A DNA stretch of 64,000 bases, taken from assembly GCF_003337435.1 (NCBI RefSeq), contig NZ_QPJS01000003.1, positions 1-64,000 on the forward strand. Reading direction: 5' to 3'. Each line of letters starts with the position of its first letter. Position 1 is the stretch's first letter. Position numbers and translations under genes: made by a program. Shown one piece after another: positions 1-33,200 of this stretch. Source of the stretch: Schleiferia thermophila. GTDB taxonomy: Bacteria > Bacteroidota > Bacteroidia > Flavobacteriales > Schleiferiaceae. The notes under the pieces are model-generated. The model made no database searches and was not told the DNA's origin. It saw nothing but the letters and a program-made list of their open reading frames with translations.

Positions 1-3000
1 CTGAAAGGCCCATGCGCCAGTACAGGGTAACGGCGTGAACTCAATGGCACCTGGGTCAGGGGTTGTGGTTCTGGGGGTTCCGTTGATGTCGGTAGAGACG
101 ATGGAGAGCAGATTGGCCCCTATGTTGTTAATCGCACCGGAGGATGGGGTGTAGTTGTTTTGAGTAGGATTGAGGAAACCCGGATTGGCGAAGACGGAGT
201 TCTGGTCCTTACCGGTAGCCTGCCATGCAGCAAAGTCGTTTAAGGCTGAGCCATGAAACCAGACGTTGTTTTGGTCGCTGAAGTAGCCGTTGTTGTTGTA
301 GGAGATACCGGTATTGGCAGTGCCCTGGTAGACGACGTATTTGGTACCACCGTTGGTTCGGGTATTGACAAAGAGGTTGTTTCTTACGTCCACATTGGTG
401 AACGTTCCGGTGAAGAAGGCAGCAGCATTGGTGCTGGAACCCGGGAAGAGGGCATCTTCAACGACTATGGTATTGTGGTACACATCCCAGTGCTGAGAGC
501 TGATCATATAGAGGGCATAGAGGAGGCCACCTCCGTTCATGTTGTACACTAAGTTGTTAAATAATCTGTTGCGTTGGCCTGCAGTAGTACTGCCGCTGAT
601 ATAGAGGGGATACATGCTGGCAGTGTTTGCCGTAGTGGAACTTGTATGGGAGTCTCTTACGCGGTTGTTGGAGAAGACCGAGTTGTTTATCCATGAGAAC
701 AGTGTTATGCCATAAAAGGTCGTCACTGTGGTACGGCCGGCTCTGGATATGTCGTTGTTGTTGAAGATCATGGAATCCTGACCTCGGATGTAGGTGCCAT
801 ACACATAAAAGTCTTCGATGAGGCAATTTTCAATTTTGTTACCAATAGCCAGATCAGTGGAAGAGGAACCGCCACCGATGCTCAATCCGTAATATCCTCC
901 ACGTATAATTGAATTGGTAATTTCGATGTAATCACCACCTTTTCCGATAGCTGTGGGTGAGGATTCGTTGGTACCGATGACTACGGGGTTGTAGTTAAGG
1001 GAAGTTAAGGTAGAGTTGACTTCAAATCGGCATTTGTTAAATTTTAGTCTTTGGGAATTTCCTGTGACGAAGAGTGCGGTGCCGAATTGAGTCGTTGTAT
1101 TGCCCTGCGATAGAATTTCAAGACTATCGATTTCAATCCATTGACAATTGTTGAAAGTTAGAGTGGAGCGCTGGGAGGTATTGGTAGAGGTGAACTGCAG
1201 CACATTACCGTTTCCGTTAATTTTTATTGTGTTTACGGAAGAGGTGGACGTAATGTTATTGAAGGCGACTTGCTCGGTGTAGGGTCCCGAAAATGGAGTC
1301 ACATTTACTGTAATGGGGCCACAGACTCCGGAACTGGAGACTGCGCTTGCAAAGTCGTTAAAACTGACAAAGTTGGTACCACTGGGAGCGGAGAGGGCAT
1401 TGATGGTGTAGGTGCCGGCGAGTCCTTTTCGAATGCCGAGTCTTTCGATGGAGTTGTTGGAGGGGTCAGTATCAACGCCTGGTCCGCTGGCGGAGATGGT
1501 GGCGGTCAGGTCGTAGATGGTGGAGCTGTTGATGGCAAATTTTCCGAGGATAATGTCTACGAAGTTACCTGTTGCCAGCACTCCGTTCCATGTGACAGGG
1601 TTTTGGGTTATTGTATTTACCGTCCAGGAGATGGTGAGTGTATTGACGGTATCTTGCCCGACATTGACAGCCCTGACAACTACATCGGCCGAGTCTCCAC
1701 AGAGAGCGCCGGAAGGTTGGATAAAAGTTGTGAGACCGGGATTGGGGCCAGGCGGGGGATCGAATTCATAGACACCGGGATCTGGCAGAAAGGCTCTGGG
1801 CATTGAGTCAAAGTCGAAGGGGACGAGTCCTCCGAGGTTTTTTCCCATTGAGTTGAGTTGGGGGGCCAGAGGCCTGTAGTTGGCCTGAGCCATGTTGATG
1901 AATTGTGGGTCTGTAAATACGCTGTTGGAATCAGCACCGGCATTTTGAAAGTCTTGCAGGGTGTTAAAGGATGCACCTCTGAAGAAAGTAGGCGCTGACA
2001 TAGTGACATTAGGGTCTTTGAAATAGGCATTATTACTGGTGCGTATGTTGTTGGTATTGCTGGTCAGGTAGGTAAGAAATCGTTCACCTGTGCCAGGTCT
2101 GGAGAGGTAAAGGAGGTTGTTTCTGACTTCGCATCCAGCCGTGGGAGTACCTGCCACCCAAATCAGACGGGTAGTAGAAGAGGATGAAGAAATGGTGTTG
2201 AATACGATGGTATTGTGAAAGATTTTGGTGTAATCGGTCGTACCAGACAGATAGATGCCATAGTACACTCCATTGGTTTGGATGTCGTAAATCAGATTGT
2301 TGGCAATGATGTTGGGGCTATTGGCTGTACCGGCTGCTACACTGATAAAGATGGGGTAGGCCGTAAATGTATTGGTGTATGGTGCTGCCCCGTGGGCATT
2401 GTGGATGCGGTTGTTGAAGACTCGGACACCGCTGCCACTGGTTCCCTGGTAGAAGCCGTAAAATGTACTGATGGTAGTCCGGGTAGGGCGGCTGATGTCG
2501 TTTCCAAAGATTTCGAAGTTGTCTTGATTAAGGGCATAAATACCGTAGAGGTAGAAGTCTCGTATGGTGTTTCGGATGATTGAATTGCCGGTGCCGCGGG
2601 CGGTGGAGGAGGATCCGAGTACAGTGATTCCATAGTAACCTCCAATGATCACATTCCGCTCGATGAGATTGTTGTTTCCGTTTAATCCTGCGGTGGTAGC
2701 AGAGGTAGTGCTGTTTGAGAAGGCGATGGCGGCATATGCTATGGAGGTGGAGGAGGAGTTGGAGATGATGGAACAGCGCCTTATTACGTTCCAGTCAGCC
2801 CCGTTTCTAAACAGTACGCTGAAACCCTGAGCACCTGAGTCGCTGCGGATGGTCAGGGAGTCGATGGTCATGTATTTGGTGCCGTTGAGCTCAAGGGTTA
2901 TGCGATCGTTGGTATTGGGGGAGAAAAAGTTCAATACGGCACCATTGCCATTTATGGTAATGGTATTGGTGGCAGAAGTTCCCGTGATGTTGCCAAAGGA

Positions 3001-3990
3001 AACTTTTTCCAGATAAGGGCCTGAGCCTGGTGCTACGTTGACGGTGACCGGACCGCAGACGCCAGCTGAGTTGATAAAATTGGCAAAAGCAGTGAATGTT
3101 TGAAAATTTGTTCCGGAGGTTGGAAGTGCGGAATTAATTGTATAAGTTCCTGAAATAGAAGGTATGAGTGTTGCATTTAGGGTGTCATTGGCATTAAAGG
3201 GGTCATTTACTCCGTTAGGATTGGAGGTCCAGACCTTAATTTGGTAGATTGTATTGGCCATAAAATTCCAGGTCCCTAAAGTCAGGGGCAATTGGCTTGG
3301 TCCTGTACCTCCAACGGTATCTAACGTTTGGGTAAAGAGAATGGGAGTTTGGGGGATTCCGTTCATGGACCAGTTTACGGTAACAGTATCGATTTTATTG
3401 GTTCCAAAATTGGCAACTTTAACGATTATGGGATGGAGTCCGGGACAAAATGCCTTTGGGGAATCGAGTGAGGCAATTCCTGCATCGTTGGGAAGGGTTG
3501 GGGCTGAGATGATTTCCCACTCGCGAAAGTTGGGATTGGAGGTCTGACCCGGACCGGTCATTTGAAAAGAGGTAATCCGAACGCGAGTAGTAGTGACTTT
3601 TGGAAAGCTTACCTGATTGGAGCAAGCCGGGGGTAGGTTGGAAAACGTATGGTGATTGACCCAGTTAGTTCCATCCCATCGTTGTATCAGTCCTCCGGTA
3701 AGTAGTCGAGCGTTGTTTTGAGCATGGTGAATGATGAATTGATCAAAAGTTTTTGGCGAAGTCCATTCAAACATAATCCAGTCTACTCCAGGGGTAGATG
3801 TGGGTGGGTTGGAGGTGGGAATCCACATCTGCTGTGTGCCACAGGTTCCAAAATCCAAATCGTTGAGTGTACTACAGGGTCCGGTGTTGCACTGGCTCGC
3901 AGAAGCCACGGCCTGCGGGGCTATATTAATTTGTGCATAGAGCCCATTGGCTAACAGGATTGCTGTAAGAGATGGTAAAAATTTCTTCAT
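1..3990 (-). CDS. Giant secreted parallel beta-helix surface protein (C-terminus outside window)
   Basis: The reading frame is open from an ATG at 3990 to the window edge (1330 residues), so the C-terminus is missing. It opens with a Sec-type signal peptide (MKKFLPSLTA..., probable cleavage after LYAQ). Next come a domain of about 140 residues, a CARDB-like domain (around residues 168-275) and an Asn/Ser/Thr-rich region with the short repeats of right-handed parallel beta-helices (NNLIYDI, HNTIVF, NNRIHNA). The CARDB-plus-helix block is then repeated: GTYTIN starts at residue 281 and again at 859, 578 residues (1734 bp) apart. Such proteins in Bacteroidota are usually exported by the type IX system and carry a C-terminal sorting domain, which cannot be checked here. 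The role, perhaps adhesion or polysaccharide binding, is unknown. The gene call is secure; the function is not. Confidence 0.85.
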   Translation of the reverse strand, partial: MKKFLPSLTAILLANGLYAQINIAPQAVASASQCNTGPCSTLNDLDFGTCGTQQMWIPTSNPPTSTPGVDWIMFEWTSPKTFDQFIIHHAQNNARLLTGGLIQRWDGTNWVNHHTFSNLPPACSNQVSFPKVTTTRVRITSFQMTGPGQTSNPNFREWEIISAPTLPNDAGIASLDSPKAFCPGLHPIIVKVANFGTNKIDTVTVNWSMNGIPQTPILFTQTLDTVGGTGPSQLPLTLGTWNFMANTIYQIKVWTSNPNGVNDPFNANDTLNATLIPSISGTYTINSALPTSGTNFQTFTAFANFINSAGVCGPVTVNVAPGSGPYLEKVSFGNITGTSATNTITINGNGAVLNFFSPNTNDRITLELNGTKYMTIDSLTIRSDSGAQGFSVLFRNGADWNVIRRCSIISNSSSTSIAYAAIAFSNSTTSATTAGLNGNNNLIERNVIIGGYYGITVLGSSSTARGTGNSIIRNTIRDFYLYGIYALNQDNFEIFGNDISRPTRTTISTFYGFYQGTSGSGVRVFNNRIHNAHGAAPYTNTFTAYPIFISVAAGTANSPNIIANNLIYDIQTNGVYYGIYLSGTTDYTKIFHNTIVFNTISSSSSTTRLIWVAGTPTAGCEVRNNLLYLSRPGTGERFLTYLTSNTNNIRTSNNAYFKDPNVTMSAPTFFRGASFNTLQDFQNAGADSNSVFTDPQFINMAQANYRPLAPQLNSMGKNLGGLVPFDFDSMPRAFLPDPGVYEFDPPPGPNPGLTTFIQPSGALCGDSADVVVRAVNVGQDTVNTLTISWTVNTITQNPVTWNGVLATGNFVDIILGKFAINSSTIYDLTATISASGPGVDTDPSNNSIERLGIRKGLAGTYTINALSAPSGTNFVSFNDFASAVSSSGVCGPITVNVTPFSGPYTEQVAFNNITSTSSVNTIKINGNGNVLQFTSTNTSQRSTLTFNNCQWIEIDSLEILSQGNTTTQFGTALFVTGNSQRLKFNKCRFEVNSTLTSLNYNPVVIGTNESSPTAIGKGGDYIEITNSIIRGGYYGLSIGGGSSSTDLAIGNKIENCLIEDFYVYGTYIRGQDSMIFNNNDISRAGRTTVTTFYGITLFSWINNSVFSNNRVRDSHTSSTTANTASMYPLYISGSTTAGQRNRLFNNLVYNMNGGGLLYALYMISSQHWDVYHNTIVVEDALFPGSSTNAAAFFTGTFTNVDVRNNLFVNTRTNGGTKYVVYQGTANTGISYNNNGYFSDQNNVWFHGSALNDFAAWQATGKDQNSVFANPGFLNPTQNNYTPSSGAINNIGANLLSIVSTDINGTPRTTTPDPGAIEFTPLPCTGAWAFQ

Positions 3991-4346
3991 CGGGAATTTG
4001 ATTTGAATGTTTATACGAATTTAAGGTTTTTTTTAATGTATATAAGAAATATTTATGTGTAATAAAATTTCCATATATCATCATTAAAAGGGCTTGTTTT
4101 GCAAATTAAGATTGTTCTTTTCGAATTATTAAAATCAGCCTAAGTCTTTATTTTTTACTAAGATAAAGTGAAGGCGGGAAGAACGCTTAGGTAATTAGTG
4201 GTATTGGTTGGTTTAAAAAACTTTAAAAATTTGGCAATCATCCTGGTTTTGCGTGGAGAGGTTTGCTGCTTTGGATGGTTTTGTAGCATTCTACTGAACG
4301 AGTTGAACAAGTGCATCTCATCAGAATTGTCGTGTCCATTGATTTT

Positions 4347-4522
4347 TGCGCCAGGGCGTAGGCGGATATGAGCCGCAGCGGGCGGGCAGTGTGGCACACG
4401 GGCGAGGAGGCGGAGCGGCAGCAAGCCACCGCAGCCCAATGTGCCAGGCCCGATCCGCAAGGGGAATAGGAGCCGTAGACCGGCCTCCGGCCGCTGGTGT
4501 CAAGCGGCCGGGGGAGGCGCCC
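4347..4522. other. GC-rich dyad-containing island of unknown nature
   Basis: In the 547-bp gap between the beta-helix gene and the DASS transporter, 3991-4346 is AT-rich and I see no gene in it. From about 4347 to 4522 the DNA turns abruptly GC-rich, with many GGC/CCG blocks. It holds a strong hairpin (4483-4518) and a possible long-range pairing of GCGGAT (4362-4367) with ATCCGC (4453-4458). Open frames cross it in several phases on both strands, as expected from GC-rich DNA lacking stops, and none resembles a known protein. It could be a structured RNA, a dispersed intergenic repeat or an imported fragment. I see no second copy in this window. Confidence 0.5.
4483..4518. repeat. Strong inverted repeat inside the GC-rich island
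   Basis: CCGGCCGCT (4487-4495) pairs perfectly with AGCGGCCGG (4503-4511) around the 7-nt loop GGTGTCA. Beyond a 3-nt GGG bulge, GCCT (4483-4486) pairs with AGGC (4515-4518). No T-run follows on either strand, so this is not a standard intrinsic terminator for the DASS gene, although it lies just past that gene's stop codon. Confidence 0.7.
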
Positions 4523-4537
4523 ACATAATACGCGTGA

Positions 4538-5926
4538 TTAGGAAAAGTTTTTAGAAATGAGCATTAGGGCGGTGAAAATGCCAATGCTGATCAGGTTGAG
4601 CAGCAGTCCTTTGCGCAGCATGGAGCTTTGTGCTATGTGACCGGTGCTGAAGGCAATGGCATTGGGAGGGGTGGCGATGGGCAGCATAAATGCACAACTG
4701 GAGGCCATGGCGATGGCCATACCGGTGTAGAGGAAAATTTGAGTATCGGTGACTGTAAGTGCAGCGGCCACAGGCAGCATCAGACCTGTGAGGGCTACAT
4801 TGGACATGAATTCGGTAAGTAATACGGAGGCTGAAATTAAGCCTAGAGATGCGATGAGATCGGAATTTTCCTGTTGACTGAAAAAGGTGGTGAGTAGTCG
4901 GGTGAGATGTGTTTTTTCGACCATAAGTGCCATGGTAAGTCCTGCGCCAAAGAGCAGCAGGATTCCCCAGGAGAGATTACGGGTGTCGGACCAGTCGAGT
5001 AGAGGTTTTCCGGTGTCTTGGCCTGAAGGGATAAGAAACAGCATCAGGCCACCTGTGAGGGCTATGGTGGTGTCGTTGAGGTAATCAAATGGAAGAAAGG
5101 GAGCCGTAAACCACAGGATGACGGTAAATATGAATATGTAAAACACTCTGTACTGGGCAGTGGAAACCGGGGGTAGCTGGTGGTACAATCGTTTGATGTG
5201 CTCTTGCAGATTGGGGTCGAGGGGTGAAGATTTTTTTGAAAGGAAATACAGAAATAGAAAGGAAAGCAGCAGGAGGCTCACTGGCAAGCCTATGGATGAC
5301 CACTGCAGAAAAGTAATGGGTGGCCAGTGCTGCTCATTGTAAAAGCCGGCAAATACCAGGTTGGGTGGTGTGCCAATAAGGGTGGCAATGCCACCTATAT
5401 TGGCTGCATAGGCGATGGTCAAAAAGATGTTTTCCTTAAACGAGGAGGATATATGTATATGCGATTCGATCACGGAAATCAGGGCGGTGCATATCGGGAG
5501 CATCATAATAGCTGTGGCGGTATTGCTTATCCACATGCTCAACAAGTAGGAGGATAGACCGGTTGCGATTAGTACGGAATTGAGATTTTTGTGAAAATGG
5601 TACAGGAGCCACAAGGCCAGACGGCGATGGATCTCCCATTTTTCTATGGCAAGGGCTAGCAAAAAGCCGCCGAGAAATAGAAAAATGACGGGGTTGGCGT
5701 ATTGAGAAGTGGCTTCCTTGAGGGTGGTTGTACCTGCAGCGGGGAGCACTACGATCGGAAGCAGGGCCGTGACGGCGTAATGAACTACCTGATTGGTCCA
5801 CCATATGAGCATCCACGCAAAGAGGGCCAAGACCAGAGATTGATCAGAGGTAAGAAAATTTTTTAAAAAAATCAAAACAAGAAGGAAAGCAACTACACCT
5901 GAGAGCGCTTTTAAGAATTGTTTCAT
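4538..5926 (-). CDS. DASS/SLC13-family sodium:carboxylate symporter
   Basis: This is an inner-membrane transporter of the divalent anion:sodium symporter family, which takes up dicarboxylates, sulfate or similar anions with Na+. I start it at the ATG at 5926 (462 aa); a frame from an upstream TTG at 5953 is open but less likely. It has about eleven or more hydrophobic segments. The two paired substrate/Na+-binding motifs of the family are visible: SNTAT (about residue 134) with GTPPN (about 185), and SNVAL (about 375) with ATPPN (about 418). The first is the canonical SNT; the second reads SNV. It diverges from the act operon across 172 bp that contains a hairpin in its leader. The substrate cannot be read from the sequence. 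Confidence 0.9.
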   Translation of the reverse strand: MKQFLKALSGVVAFLLVLIFLKNFLTSDQSLVLALFAWMLIWWTNQVVHYAVTALLPIVVLPAAGTTTLKEATSQYANPVIFLFLGGFLLALAIEKWEIHRRLALWLLYHFHKNLNSVLIATGLSSYLLSMWISNTATAIMMLPICTALISVIESHIHISSSFKENIFLTIAYAANIGGIATLIGTPPNLVFAGFYNEQHWPPITFLQWSSIGLPVSLLLLSFLFLYFLSKKSSPLDPNLQEHIKRLYHQLPPVSTAQYRVFYIFIFTVILWFTAPFLPFDYLNDTTIALTGGLMLFLIPSGQDTGKPLLDWSDTRNLSWGILLLFGAGLTMALMVEKTHLTRLLTTFFSQQENSDLIASLGLISASVLLTEFMSNVALTGLMLPVAAALTVTDTQIFLYTGMAIAMASSCAFMLPIATPPNAIAFSTGHIAQSSMLRKGLLLNLISIGIFTALMLISKNFS

Positions 5927-5950
5927 CAAAGAGAAGAGTGAAAATAAAGG

Positions 5951-5977
5951 CAATTTTCAGCAAAGAAGCTGAAATTG
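5951..5977. repeat. Inverted repeat between DASS transporter and actA
   Basis: CAATTTTCAGC (5951-5961) and GCTGAAATTG (5968-5977) are complementary except for one bulged T, around the 6-nt loop AAAGAA. It lies 25 bp upstream of the DASS start codon and about 65 bp before the proposed act promoter. It could be an operator or a hairpin in the transporter leader. No T-run of terminator type follows. Confidence 0.5.
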
Positions 5978-6039
5978 TAAAGGATTCTGAATTGTTTAGA
6001 ACGATTTTAAATTGTGAAGATGCATTTAAACCTGGGCGA

Positions 6040-6067
6040 TTGAAAAATAGTTAGAAACATAAATTTG
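6040..6067 (+). promoter_or_regulatory. Bacteroidota-type promoter of the act-cox operon
   Basis: TAAATTTG at 6060-6067 matches the Bacteroidota -7 consensus TAnnTTTG exactly. A TTG at 6040-6042 lies 17 nt upstream, where the -33 element belongs. The predicted transcript would begin near 6074, giving actA a leader of about 25 nt. Confidence 0.6.
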
Positions 6068-6098
6068 CGAGCAAAGTGTAAAAGCATCGAAATCATTT

Positions 6099-7346
6099 AT
6101 GAAGATTATGAAAAAGTGTGTAAGCAGGCTCAGAATGGTGTGGGTAGTCCTGTGTGTGATGCTGAGCAGCCTGATGGTTTCAGCCCAGGATTTACCTGGA
6201 GATCCAGCCAATGGTAGGAAATTGTTTAATGCGCAGTGTGCAGCTTGTCACAAGCTGGACAGAAGGCTTGTGGGTCCTGCGATGGCTGGGATTACCGAAA
6301 GAAGATCGCAGGAATGGTTGATCCGATGGATCAGAAATAATGCTGAGCTAAGGGCTAGTGGGGATAAAGATGCCATTGCCGTTTATGAAGAGTACAACAG
6401 GTCTGCAATGCCGGCTTTTCCGTTGCTTTCAGACCAGGATATATTGGATATTCTCGCATATACCATAGTCGGTGATCAACCTGCCAGTCCAGCCGGTGAT
6501 GGTCCTGTGACTACACAGGCACCTGCCAAACCTGAGCGGGGTCTCAATGTGTGGGTGTTGGCCGGTTTATCCCTCTTCTTGTTGATTTTGTTGATGATTT
6601 TGGTCAAGGTAAAGAATACGTTAAAAGTAATCAAAGGAGAAGAGCCGACCTCAGTCCTTGAGGATTTTTCAAAAGGTGTACAGGTAGCGGTTAAAAATCA
6701 AAAGCTGATTGTACTCCTTACGGTTGTGGTATCAGTTTTTTTATTAAAGGAGTTGTACTGGGGATTGATGTCAATAGGTGTGGAGCAGGGTTATATGCCT
6801 GAGCAGCCTATCGCATTTTCGCATAAAATACATGCAGGCGAAAATGGTATAGATTGTAAATACTGTCATTACGGTGCTGAGAAAGGAAAGCATTCCAACA
6901 TTCCTTCTGCAGCGCTGTGTATGAATTGTCACAAGTACATACAGGAGGGTCCCAAATATGGCACAGCTGAAATAGATAAAATTTATGCGGCTGTTGGTTT
7001 TGACCGCGAAACACAGTCGTATATCGAAGGTTATGAAGAGAAACCGGTGAAATGGGTAAGAGTGCACAACCTTCCGGATCTGTCTTATTTCAACCATGCT
7101 CAACACGTAAATGTAGCTGGCCTGGAGTGTCAGACCTGCCATGGTCCTGTAGAGGAGATGGAAGTATTGTATCAGTATTCAGAGCTTACCATGGGTTGGT
7201 GTATCAACTGCCACAGAGAGACGGAAGTCAATATCGAAAATGGTTATTACAAAGACCTTCACGACAAATTAAAGGCTAAGTACAAGTCCGATAAAATCAC
7301 CGCTGAAATGATTGGCGGACTGGAATGCGGTAAGTGTCACTATTAA
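6099..7346 (+). CDS. actA: Alternative complex III subunit A, six-heme cytochrome c
   Basis: This is the multiheme electron-exit subunit of the quinol:cytochrome c oxidoreductase ACIII. It has a Sec signal peptide (cleavage near SAQ, residue 30). An N-terminal monoheme cytochrome c domain follows (CAACH, 47-51, with a Met-containing segment near 104), then two transmembrane segments (about 149-171 and 203-222). The C-terminal class III-like domain carries CxxCH motifs at 253, 274, 344, 368 and 410. That is six heme sites, where the Rhodothermus ActA is described as pentaheme; the sixth belongs to the extra N-terminal domain. The gene heads a same-strand run of eight genes behind a TAnnTTTG promoter. 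An in-frame ATG four codons in is a possible alternative start. Confidence 0.93.
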   Translation: MKIMKKCVSRLRMVWVVLCVMLSSLMVSAQDLPGDPANGRKLFNAQCAACHKLDRRLVGPAMAGITERRSQEWLIRWIRNNAELRASGDKDAIAVYEEYNRSAMPAFPLLSDQDILDILAYTIVGDQPASPAGDGPVTTQAPAKPERGLNVWVLAGLSLFLLILLMILVKVKNTLKVIKGEEPTSVLEDFSKGVQVAVKNQKLIVLLTVVVSVFLLKELYWGLMSIGVEQGYMPEQPIAFSHKIHAGENGIDCKYCHYGAEKGKHSNIPSAALCMNCHKYIQEGPKYGTAEIDKIYAAVGFDRETQSYIEGYEEKPVKWVRVHNLPDLSYFNHAQHVNVAGLECQTCHGPVEEMEVLYQYSELTMGWCINCHRETEVNIENGYYKDLHDKLKAKYKSDKITAEMIGGLECGKCHY

Positions 7347-30239: not shown

Positions 30240-33200
30240 TTATTGAGCCAAATTTACGCGAATTGATATTCCCACATTGGTGTTGGAAGTGGGGAAGGCA
30301 TTGGAAGTTTTATAGGTGGAGATGATCTGGTCATAAAACACTTTTGCATTCACGCGGGCGCTGATGGCATAATCGGCCGATACCTTAATGGTAGTGATGC
30401 GACTGCCGGCTGTTACTTGGTCAACTCTTTCTACGATTCTTCTAATAATGACCTGATTATCACGGATCGACACATCGGCTCTAAGTTCCAGGTTGCTTTG
30501 TGGTTTACGACCGGTTTCGCCCAGACTGACAAATTGGAGTTTAACATCTTTGACTACATATCCTGCTCCTACGACAATTTCATTTCCACGGGAGTCAGTC
30601 AGCTGATTGTTTGCCAGACTGAGGTTTTGCATCCGGTCTTTTTTGTAATCGATTCTGAGGGTCATGGAGTTTTTCATTCGTACATTAAAGCCAATCAGTG
30701 GCGACCATTGCTCTACGATGGTAGCTGAGGCGATCTGGAATTCAGGCAGAAAATCTCCATTTTCGTTGATGGGTGGTTCACCGTCTTCCAATCGCTGCTG
30801 AAGGATGAGATTTGTGTTGAAATTGCCAAGGGTATAGGTGCCCGTATAGCCGTGGCGGAGGGCGATGTTGGTGAAGTGTTTGTTGAAAAAGGGAATCTTG
30901 TTGAGCCCGTCATAAGTAAGCTGCCAATTGGGCAGTGGGATGGAATTCCGGCTGAATCTTGGGTCCAGGTCAATGGTTTTTGGGTCAAGTCCTGCAAATG
31001 CTGCGATGAAAGCCGGTATCAATACATCCTGTGAAGCATAGCTGTAGCCTTGCCATCCGTAGGCAGAGGTATCGGGATTGTCGATAAAGGTGGGATTATA
31101 AGTTGGGTCTGTTTGTTGCCGTTGATTTACCAGTCTTAAAGAAACATCTTCGCGGTATCGCAGGAATCGCTCGTACACATCGCTGCGAAACTCAGGACCT
31201 CTAATCCTTTCGAAGGAAGTGCGAAAAGCCCAGAACGAGGTGGTGTAAGTACCCATTTGAAAAAGGTTTTGCACCTGATAATCGAAAGCTGTGGCATCGA
31301 ACCGGAAAAATCCGTTTTGATTGAAGGTGCTGTTTCGTTGTGAGGTGAGTTCGATTCGAAAGGTATTGATGGGTTCCAGAGTGGCGCGTAGGTTGAGGTT
31401 TTCGGTTAAGGTATTTGAAAATTGATTGTTGAGCAATGGGGTTTTGGTGATCCATTCATTTTCTGCGGCCAGGGGTTTAATGTCTTTTTGTGAGCCGAAG
31501 GCAAAGTCTAGTCCGGGAGCTCTCCCTTGCTGGCCCAGCAGTTCAGGCTGTGGCATGAATCCGGGCAGCAGGGTTCCTCTGGTCAGAGTGTAGCCTCCTC
31601 CAACATTTCTGACGGTCATAAGAATTCGGGCTGATGTCTTTGCAAATTTCCTCAAGACAGATTCCTTATCTTCTTCTTGTTGTTTTTCGGATGGGTTTTG
31701 GTTGGTATTCCCGCGCAGATTGGCTGGTATATTGGGCCTTTGCTGACCTGGTCTTTGGGGTTGTTTAATCTGATTTGCTTCTTTGAAAAATTTAATTTTA
31801 TTGTAGAAATTGACCAGATTGGCCTGTCCGTTTACTTGCCAACTTTGGGAGTTTTGGATGGTGTTGCCCAAATTGAGGGAGTCGTTGTCTACGGCTGTGA
31901 GGGCGAGCAGGGAGTTCGACATCCAGTCGTAATCGGCTGTGTATCGTACGCTGGCGTTTATGAAGTTAAGCAGTGGTATTTTGCCAAATGGCAGGTCGTA
32001 GTTGACATTCAATGTGTGGTGGTAGTTGGTAGGTCTTCCACCGGCCAGGAGGTTTTCACGGATGGCGTTTCTTACGGAGTCAGCTGTCGATGGGCCATCG
32101 GGTTCGTCCACACGGGTAAACATGCGCGCCTGAAAATCAGCTCTTAGGGCCTTGGTAAGATCCCAGCTTAGGTCGTAGATGCGGTTGAAGGTAAAAGCCT
32201 TTTGGTAAGTGGTAGGAAGTCTGAAAGTTGGATTGTCTGTGTTGCGCATTTCGGCTTCGTTGTAGATACGCCAGAGCTCGGTTCTAAAGGTGAAGCGCGA
32301 AGGCATGTAGTTGAAATTAAAGTCCCTGATCAATGCCAGGTGCTTGTTTTGGAGGAATTTGATTTTTTTGAAGGGTTCGACTGGCTTTACCTGTGCCTGA
32401 TAATTGTAATTGAGTGCGCCCTTGTAATCCCGCCTTACATCAGAAACGGTGTTGATATCTCGGAAATAAATTTCATTGAATGAATAGGAGAGTGCAAAAT
32501 TTTCAATGTCGTACAACTGGGGTTTTCGCTTGGTATTGGTGCGTTCTTTTCGAACATTGGCAAAGTTGATACCGCGCCTAAGGGTATAGGTTTGGGCAAT
32601 TCGGCGCAGGGAATCGCGTTCGCGGTTGGTTTCTAGATTTCTAAGTGCATCGGGAAATTCGATGTCCATGTCGAGTGGGTTGAACATGGGATTGCGCCAT
32701 TCTTCGGCATAGCCAAAGAACATGGGAATTCTCAGCCGTACTTTTTCAGAAAAAAACTTCCCAAGCTCAAAGTTCGACTGCAGGTCGTAGGCAATGATTT
32801 CTTCCTTGCTTCTGGCGTTTACATTTTGGTCGATGGACCCGAAGCCTACGGTGGAATAATTTCCTGTAAGGGTAATGTTGGCAAAATCGGCCAGTTGGGC
32901 ATTTACCCTTCCGGCGGCTGCATATCCTCCACGATTGTCAAACCCGCCGAGTCGAAGTTCGTTTACCCAGATTTCGGCACATTTTGGCAGGCCATCGTCA
33001 TTGGGGTCACCGAGTTGTTTTTTGGGATTTCTGACACCTATCATGATGGTCCGTACATTGCCCAGATTGGGCACACCTACGATGGTGATTTTTCGTCCAC
33101 CTCTATCTACTGTGAAGCGGGTTTGCAGCGGCACTCCTGCTCTGTCACGCTCGAGTTTGATTTTTCTGATTTCATCCAGGTCAATGTCAAATTCGTTTTC

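Follow-up and report, generated by a model that had tools for sequence, protein, structure and literature searches.

In a 64,000-nucleotide stretch of the Schleiferia thermophila genome (hereafter the window), positions 4347 to 4522 stand out by base composition, and the question raised by this locus is whether they hold a dispersed repeat, a structured RNA or a foreign remnant, the three possibilities offered by an earlier note made from the sequence alone. The GC content is 0.72-0.73 over positions 4350-4499 as against 0.20-0.43 over 3950-4349, which bears out the GC-rich island described in that note. Its picture of an AT-rich gap holds for the left flank only, because the gene to the right of the island is mostly 0.42-0.56 GC. 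As the note also had it, no protein is recognizable, and no protein-like frame stands out.

A dispersed element with fixed ends

When the genome of the window (2.6 Mb; G000) was searched with the island by blastn, as the note had proposed, 26 places were found, far beyond chance: 25 full-length copies, that is, the window copy and 24 others, and one partial copy of 76 bases. The other copies are 83-92% identical to the window copy, and comparison of the blastn matches and their flanks revealed sharp, common ends. The copies start and stop at the same bases, nothing obvious is common to the flanks, and the true span of the element is window 4347-4524. Among 40 genomes, including G000 itself, blastn with the island DNA gave matches in three; besides G000 these are G001 and G019, which come from a different genus within the family and whose copies are 72-80% identical over the longer matches.

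Three related copies or pieces lie inside 4.5 kb at C1:140222, C1:140517 (the partial copy) and C1:144475, a cluster that suggests local duplication. A second subfamily is also present in G000 (C1:517854, C2:477366, C2:499977, C2:508573, C3:173099 and C4:57436), with copies of 121-131 bases that run from GCGTGAGGGATGCG to GGGGCACGC. A literature search with sequence strings of the element returned no publication that was relevant as judged by title.

The features of the locus are as follows. The first was also matched, over window 4346-4524 and at 170.3 bits, by a covariance model built from long copies only (R1).

4347..4524, + strand (the folded strand): dispersed structured element, a long-arm relative of Flavo-1, delimited by the common copy boundaries and the fold
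4348..4352, + strand: 5' side of the closing stem P1, GCGCC, pairing with 4516-4520
4354..4380, + strand: 5' strand of the conserved core, made up of helices 2-6, which are short and set apart by purine-rich internal loops
4381..4455, + strand: variable arm, whose main stem is here 4392-4398 with 4440-4446
4456..4483, + strand: 3' strand of the conserved core, whose short-form counterpart is GAGGACTTGNAGCGGATAGCCCG
4484-4495/4503-4514, + strand: terminal hairpin of 12 bp with a 7-nt loop; the stem is kept and the loop varies among copies
4516..4520, + strand: 3' side of P1, GGCGC, from covariation and the fold
4521..4537, + strand: gene-side flank, weakly A-rich in the window copy
4538..5953, - strand: convergent neighbour, a Na_sulph_symp transporter of 471 aa (Pfam PF00939, E 6.4e-54)
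1..7001, + strand: local GC-skew peak (excess of G over C) that contains the element and reaches +0.30 in 1.5-kb windows

The + strand folds into a closed structure

The + strand of the element folds into a closed structure that is kept by compensatory changes. RNAalifold applied to the 25 copies from G000 gave a rod of 54 pairs, 14 of which show compensatory changes. An alignment of 39 long copies (A3) was then assembled from the 25 of G000, the 10 of 22 R1 matches in G001 that have compact arms and all four matches in G019; here 36 pairs were predicted, 22 of which carry changes on both sides. In A3, 96.8% of cells are paired, compared with 36-49% in slid-partner controls, and none of 500 shuffles reached any of five measures of covariation. 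This covariance analysis, also proposed in the earlier note, sets the island apart from a single copy with neither homologues nor covariation.

The structure consists of an end-to-end closing stem, a core with purine loops, an exchangeable arm and a terminal hairpin. P1 (A3 columns 4-8 with 186-190) joins the very ends of the element; two of its five pairs have double changes, in 12-13 sequences, and the stem switches as a unit between subfamilies, GCGCC/GGCGC in one and GCGTG/CACGC in the other. In 123 short forms, preselected for a closing stem found with at most two mismatches, the last two closing-stem positions (4-5) take all four Watson-Crick pair types. Inside the closing stem follow short helices with conserved purine loops between them, then the variable arm and the terminal hairpin. 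The 5' strand of the core contains columns that are invariant both in the 25 copies and in the 39. The arm, which is swapped for other arms in other lineages, covaries in its own right: 14 of the 15 pairs of helices 7-9 show double changes in the 39-copy alignment. Two pairings had been noted from the window alone. The hairpin at 4483-4518, given there as 13 bp, is real, and the minimum-energy fold makes it 12 bp (4484-4495 with 4503-4514); the possible closing stem at 4362-4367 with 4453-4458 is absent from the conserved structure, which is closed instead by 4348-4352 and 4516-4520.

Folded as RNA, the + strand of the window copy has a z score of -3.66, which none of 200 shuffles equalled, and the - strand one of -2.24 (5 of 200); folded as DNA, the + strand has -2.35 (3 of 200). 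The + strand is the better RNA folder in 24 of 25 copies from G000, 12 of 14 from G001 and G019 and 87 of 123 short copies, and the - strand in 0, 1 and 15 of the same sets, respectively.

Relationship to the Flavo-1 motif

The general form of the family is GCGNN-AGGGATNGNAGCGGAWAGCCCG-arm-GAGGACTTGNAGCGGATAGCCCG-hairpin-N'N'CGCCC, with other arms allowed. A scan of species genomes for relatives gave at least 119 stretches, and the 80 of these that were titled include many groups of Bacteroidota and several Spirochaetes. In 13 chosen genomes, pattern matches with at most two mismatches numbered up to 56 (Limnovirga soli) and 629 (a Spirochaetales bin), and the reversed-pattern control gave none. 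The bin (G110, the genome of stretch L231, JAISAF records) holds its 629 matches, which are to the 5' half of the short form, in 3.1 Mb. Two other repeats were noticed: the arms of L066 and L070 (both G004) hold a common AT-rich stretch that resembles a further dispersed repeat nested there, and positions ~710-771 of stretch 3600-4750 in L222 carry another short dispersed repeat that is 87-98% identical in many Mucilaginibacter genomes.

Rfam gave no match on the island at gathering level, and at E<=10 on window 4250-4600 only implausible matches, none of them to Flavo-1 (RF01705). In contrast to the window copy, all eight short-form loci tried give a full-length RF01705 match at the element, with scores of 30.4-39.7 bits that fall under the cut-off of 42. 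Of 60 relatives, seven have Flavo-1 matches above the cut-off, and one of the seven has at least 65. At E<=0.1 the model gave none in G000, G001 or G019 among the 65 first-look candidates scored per genome (65 of 412 in G000). The one second-subfamily copy tried in Rfam (L375) likewise gave no Flavo-1 match.

R1 approaches the same comparison from the other side. Run against 80 short-form loci at E<=1, it matched 66 and left 14 without a match. The matches number 85, of which 68 reach E<=0.001 and 83 run end to end. It matches all seven of the loci shared with RF01705 matches, which RF01705 itself scores below cut-off, and its match at G025:C42:21067-21225 overlaps an RF01705 match above cut-off. 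The scans of relatives scored only 27 (R1) and 65 (RF01705) first-look candidates per genome under stricter filters, so that their counts are lower bounds and absences, that in G003 included, carry limited weight. Because a model made from long copies only also matches the short Flavo-1 elements, the island is, on model comparison, a Flavo-1 homologue that has a grown, lineage-specific arm and is missed by the Rfam model. The remark in the earlier note that the sequence seemed familiar from other Bacteroidota gaps was apt, since many Bacteroidota carry related elements and these coincide with Flavo-1 of Rfam.

Flavo-1 was presented in 2010 as a Bacteroidetes motif that is likely to be an RNA and not cis-regulatory (passages of PMC2864571), and the passages on it in PMC2864571 and PMC9723704 state no function.

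A zone of strand asymmetry follows most copies in G000

In G000, most copies are followed by a zone of more G and less A on the folded strand. A scan for the stem in the 672.7 kb of G000 examined gave 33 candidates, from which C2:223177 and C2:352046 were dropped as they share only the stem, leaving 31 copies from both subfamilies; as the 5' flank of C3:173099 is incomplete, 30 of the 31 were used for the 5' side and for the promoter test described below. Over the 1.5 kb 3' of the copies, GC skew is positive in 30 of 31 and above 0.2 in 25, with a mean of +0.27 that none of 20000 random draws reached. By comparison, only 4 of the 941 G000 windows that lie over 9 kb away from the nearest copy exceed 0.2. 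Six copies are exceptions and do not exceed 0.2 on their 3' side; the only negative value among them, -0.12, belongs to a copy that another one faces from 3 kb away. Among the 39 aligned long copies, the skew is positive in all 39 of the 3' flanks and in 38 of the 5' flanks. Most second-subfamily copies also sit at skew peaks.

The mean profile in G000 rises within about 0.5 kb ahead of the copy, is close to +0.29 over the kilobase that follows the copy and fades by 5-6 kb. On the folded strand of the zone, G goes from about 0.23 to 0.34, A falls from 0.27 to 0.19, C goes slightly down and total GC goes up, with G over C and T over A. In convergent genes, folded-strand G at third codon positions is 0.54 in the first kilobase and 0.32 beyond 5.5 kb. 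The profile and codon sets use the 26 blastn matches including the 76-base partial C1:140517, whose neighbourhood is therefore counted twice, and the codon-position work relied on a crude longest-ORF script. Since T also drops at third codon positions in the zone, simple deamination is insufficient as an account. Genes of the + strand share the trend. Those that lie upstream and within 1 kb show G 0.29 and C 0.21, as against 0.20 and 0.22 in a control region; downstream, two + genes confirmed by Pfam show G 0.58 and C 0.06 (Mem_trans, ATG-initiated part) and G 0.37 and C 0.22 (cyclophilin-FKBP). The set used for + genes omits copy C4:56786, because an opposite-facing copy of the second subfamily lies about 480 bases upstream of it; the profile, codon and 31-copy sets include it.

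Two parts of G000, a 240-kb control without long copies and the window, were chosen independently of the copies. The control has a single peak above 0.22, and a GCGTG-ended second-subfamily copy lies at its foot. Overall, 42 partly overlapping peak segments were listed. On our reading, 38 of them lie next to a copy of the corresponding orientation (in one case on the 5' side of the copy), a share that is not unbiased because most G000 stretches were chosen around copies. The remaining four comprise two at the ends of contigs, where assembly may have been interrupted by a copy, and two that represent one weak place in the window. This place, window 30751-32751, is a weak skew peak of +0.23 with no recognizable copy.

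The convergent transporter provides a comparison across genomes. Its stop codon is 13 bases from the element and its coding-strand GC skew is -0.28, whereas its homologues in 27 relatives have values of -0.13 to +0.12, those in the two closest relatives being +0.03 and +0.07. The comparison covers 28 of 30 matching genomes, our own included (L493 and L494, with weak or split matches, were left out), and none of the 27 relatives' transporters has a stem-scan candidate copy within 900 bases past its stop. As homologues without a copy lack the skew, the bias is a property of the place and not of the gene. Two general causes were rejected: a replichore-wide skew, as the skew is local and centred on copies, and the codon preference of highly expressed genes, as + and - genes both gain + strand G and homologues elsewhere are without the bias.

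The zone in G000 agrees with that in two other genera. In G004, a third genus with short forms, the zone is present in 14 of 15 copies and peaks at about +0.2 (15 of the 20 copies have enough flank and were used). Limnovirga shows no skew zone (15 of 25 copies). Pooled short forms give a weak gradient that runs the same way and by inspection is most evident in 27 Spirochaete-titled copies; stretches L244-L282, which lay beyond the 80 titled ones, were assigned to the 'Bacteroidota' skew set by default. Peaks can also arise otherwise, because G003, in which no copies were detected, has eight listed peak segments in 200 kb, all negative, and in 400 kb of G001 there are two peaks with no candidate copy, one of them at -0.38. 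G058 has one copy-less peak in 200 kb.

Such copy-less peaks in G003 and G001 lend themselves to a reversal of cause, in which the G-rich, C-poor zones were there first and insertions are drawn to them or kept in them, for instance if one strand is often single-stranded in such zones. The copies, moreover, are fairly alike, while a zone that reaches the level of codons must be old. We nevertheless regard the reversal as distinctly unlikely, given the rarity of skewed windows remote from copies in G000, the copy at the sole peak of the 240-kb control, the presence of the zone around two different subfamilies and a profile that is centred on the copy.

Gene context and transcription

In G000, the gene on the 3' side of the element is convergent in 21 of 24 rows (one row per locus, with genes called by the crude longest-ORF script), and in 14 of these 21 its stop lies 8-28 bases from the element; for G001 and G019 the count is 9 of 14. 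The gene-side flank is A-rich on the + strand, that is, T-rich in the orientation of the gene, in most G000 and G001 copies. In that orientation many copies are directly preceded by T-rich sequence, which in some cases forms the tail of a terminator-like hairpin. The family as a whole follows no fixed rule of placement: across 109 rows of the broad family, in which short forms were kept only if the closing stem was found and genes were called with the same crude script, the two orientations relative to downstream genes number 53 and 48, with eight rows without a neighbour.

This placement in G000, together with the T-rich tracts and terminator-like hairpins that precede many copies, is what one would expect if the element acted on the opposite strand at the 3' ends of genes, as a terminator aid, an mRNA stabilizer or a Rho-loading site, with C-rich, G-poor mRNA selected for Rho. 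The - strand folds worse, however, and the + genes beside copies are also enriched in G, the wrong direction for a C-rich mRNA; the zone extends about 5 kb into coding DNA, and the broad family lacks such placement. We consider a 3'-end function quite improbable.

A second alternative is that the copies encode members of a non-coding RNA family or processed parts of them, and that + strand transcription, often running antisense into the convergent gene, exposes the non-template strand and so creates the G-rich zone. Exposure of the non-template strand would give G over C and T over A, the direction seen on the + strand. Rfam types Flavo-1 as an sRNA, the + strand is the better RNA folder, and G-U pairs exceed A-C mismatches by 27 to 8 (a hand count) in the pair table of the 39 copies, although the two stand at 4 to 4 in the closing stem of the short forms. 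Against this reading, in the 500-base regions upstream of 30 copies, a promoter pattern occurs 10 times on the + strand versus 10.9 in mononucleotide shuffles and the -7 box alone once versus 9.8, while the full pattern on the minus strand occurs 3 times versus 1.0. An upstream promoter was rejected on this lack of + strand enrichment in the 30 regions. Hundreds of copies in one bin would also be unusual for an sRNA. In Flavobacterium psychrophilum, passages of PMC9723704 report several 5' transcribed regions that coincide with Flavo-1 matches, but they place such matches sense or antisense to transcribed regions alike, and many in none. The RNA-gene reading seems unlikely to us.

Probable mobility and a possible origin of the zone

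We consider it on balance probable that the island is a copy of a non-autonomous, dispersed, structured DNA repeat related to Flavo-1; the least certain part of this reading is that the process behind the skew zone may start at the element. A DNA repeat is favoured because there is no orientation rule, copies number in the hundreds and promoters are not enriched on the + strand. The first of the three possibilities from which we started, a dispersed repeat, accordingly describes the 26 places with fixed ends. From the second, a structured RNA, we retain a structured nucleic acid with covariation and prefer DNA to RNA. The third, a foreign remnant, finds no support: the copies are dispersed and keep their structure, and blastn against plasmid records gave nothing for the window copy. 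The same search gave nothing for one short form, for which phage records were also negative, and the short-form pattern was found in two viral contigs only.

Several points weigh against the DNA repeat. Its mobilizing enzyme was not found: the repeats beside the Y1 transposase differ, and RVT_1 has no match in G000, G001 or G019 (the last 70% complete). The flanks show by eye no target duplication. No clean empty site is available either; in Mucilaginibacter the flanks are too diverged for an empty-site comparison, and one copy is common to two species. The window copy folds less significantly as DNA than as RNA, a mostly convergent 3'-side gene is also expected of a functional 3'-end element, and several 5' transcribed regions do coincide with Flavo-1 in the passages of PMC9723704. 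The six copies at or below 0.2, Limnovirga with no zone and the copy-less peaks elsewhere count against the element as the source of the zone.

Three candidate drivers or carriers were rejected. The sole Y1_Tnp match in G000 (C1:430618-430959, L053:1485-1860) belongs to a transposase whose flanking repeats are unrelated to the element; short palindromes of a different sequence, CCAACGATTAAAATCGTTGGG, are repeated around it and make up a REP-like system distinct from the element. At L053:2040-2107, about 180 bases past the stop of this transposase and by the end of an opposite-strand gene, there is a truncated member of the element family that retains only the 3' module, with the 3' strand of the core, the hairpin and the end. 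Insertion of a SINE-like element at T-tracts by a reverse transcriptase, attractive because the 3' flank is A-rich, was discarded given the absence of RVT_1 in the three genomes. An ORF for an S23 four-helix-bundle or GxxExxY protein nested in the arm was not seen at the 60 best loci (30 PF05635 and 30 PF13366), none of which carries the element halves at 3-4 substitutions. The 23S-IVS family PF05635 itself is found in 26 of 40 relatives, often in several copies, and the 30 loci examined are without the element.

If the element is a DNA repeat, it would spread as DNA, and its folded strand may be recognized by an enzyme acting in trans, in the manner of REP and MITE elements. As our most speculative step, a strand-specific process might begin at the folded element and run on past its 3' end. 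Such a process could be repeated single-strand exposure, or nick-primed resynthesis, of the folded strand, and the skew zone would then be the record of biased mutation left behind; the loss of A and C would fit damage or error on the folded strand. That the folded repeat is the cis-acting start of a strand-specific process that rewrites kilobases of 3' genes toward G on one strand is a proposal we advance tentatively. It is equally a matter of conjecture that this process might be nick-primed synthesis, strand displacement or hybrid formation, by which the element would impose a local mutation bias.

Comparison with known systems

The window family shares with Flavo-1 (RF01705) the ends GCGNN...N'N'CGCCC, the closing stem, a core with AGGG and AGCGGAWAGCCCG, and the terminal hairpin, whereas the window copy bears a long GC-rich arm and has no RF01705 match. 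These results suggest that Flavo-1 is a dispersed, structured and probably mobile DNA repeat family that includes long-arm members missed by Rfam and extends to a Spirochaetales bin with more than 600 pattern matches.

REP, BIME and REPIN sequences are in general intergenic, folded, dispersed and multi-copy. REP/BIME elements with their Y1 transposases (RAYT) and REPINs (PMC3116915, PMC2817692, PMC3733652) resemble the present element as dispersed, intergenic, folded repeats with no ORF and with many copies. The element differs in length (~45-250 bases versus 20-40) and in its multi-helix fold with a closing stem, and the Y1 transposase of its own genome is flanked by unrelated repeats. MITEs and the RU-1/RU-2 elements are likewise non-autonomous, non-coding or nearly so, multi-copy and of similar length (PMC2759123, PMC10969869). 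Clear terminal inverted repeats accompanied by a target duplication, as in MITEs, are not seen in the element, whose ends are complementary over five bases only, and no insertion sequence was identified as its parent; it has instead a conserved internal core with covariation.

Strand-specific excess of G over C and T over A is known from transcription, R-loops and the asymmetric replication of mitochondria. The zone described here is distinguished from these by a gradient centred on a dispersed bacterial repeat and by genes of both directions within it. Such zones offer a natural mark of a strand-specific DNA or RNA process on a bacterial chromosome, and the link between a copy and a kilobase-scale skew zone, of which we found no description in the literature searched, is testable. 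In summary, the island represents a known motif in a new, long-armed form, with a strong association with local strand asymmetry.
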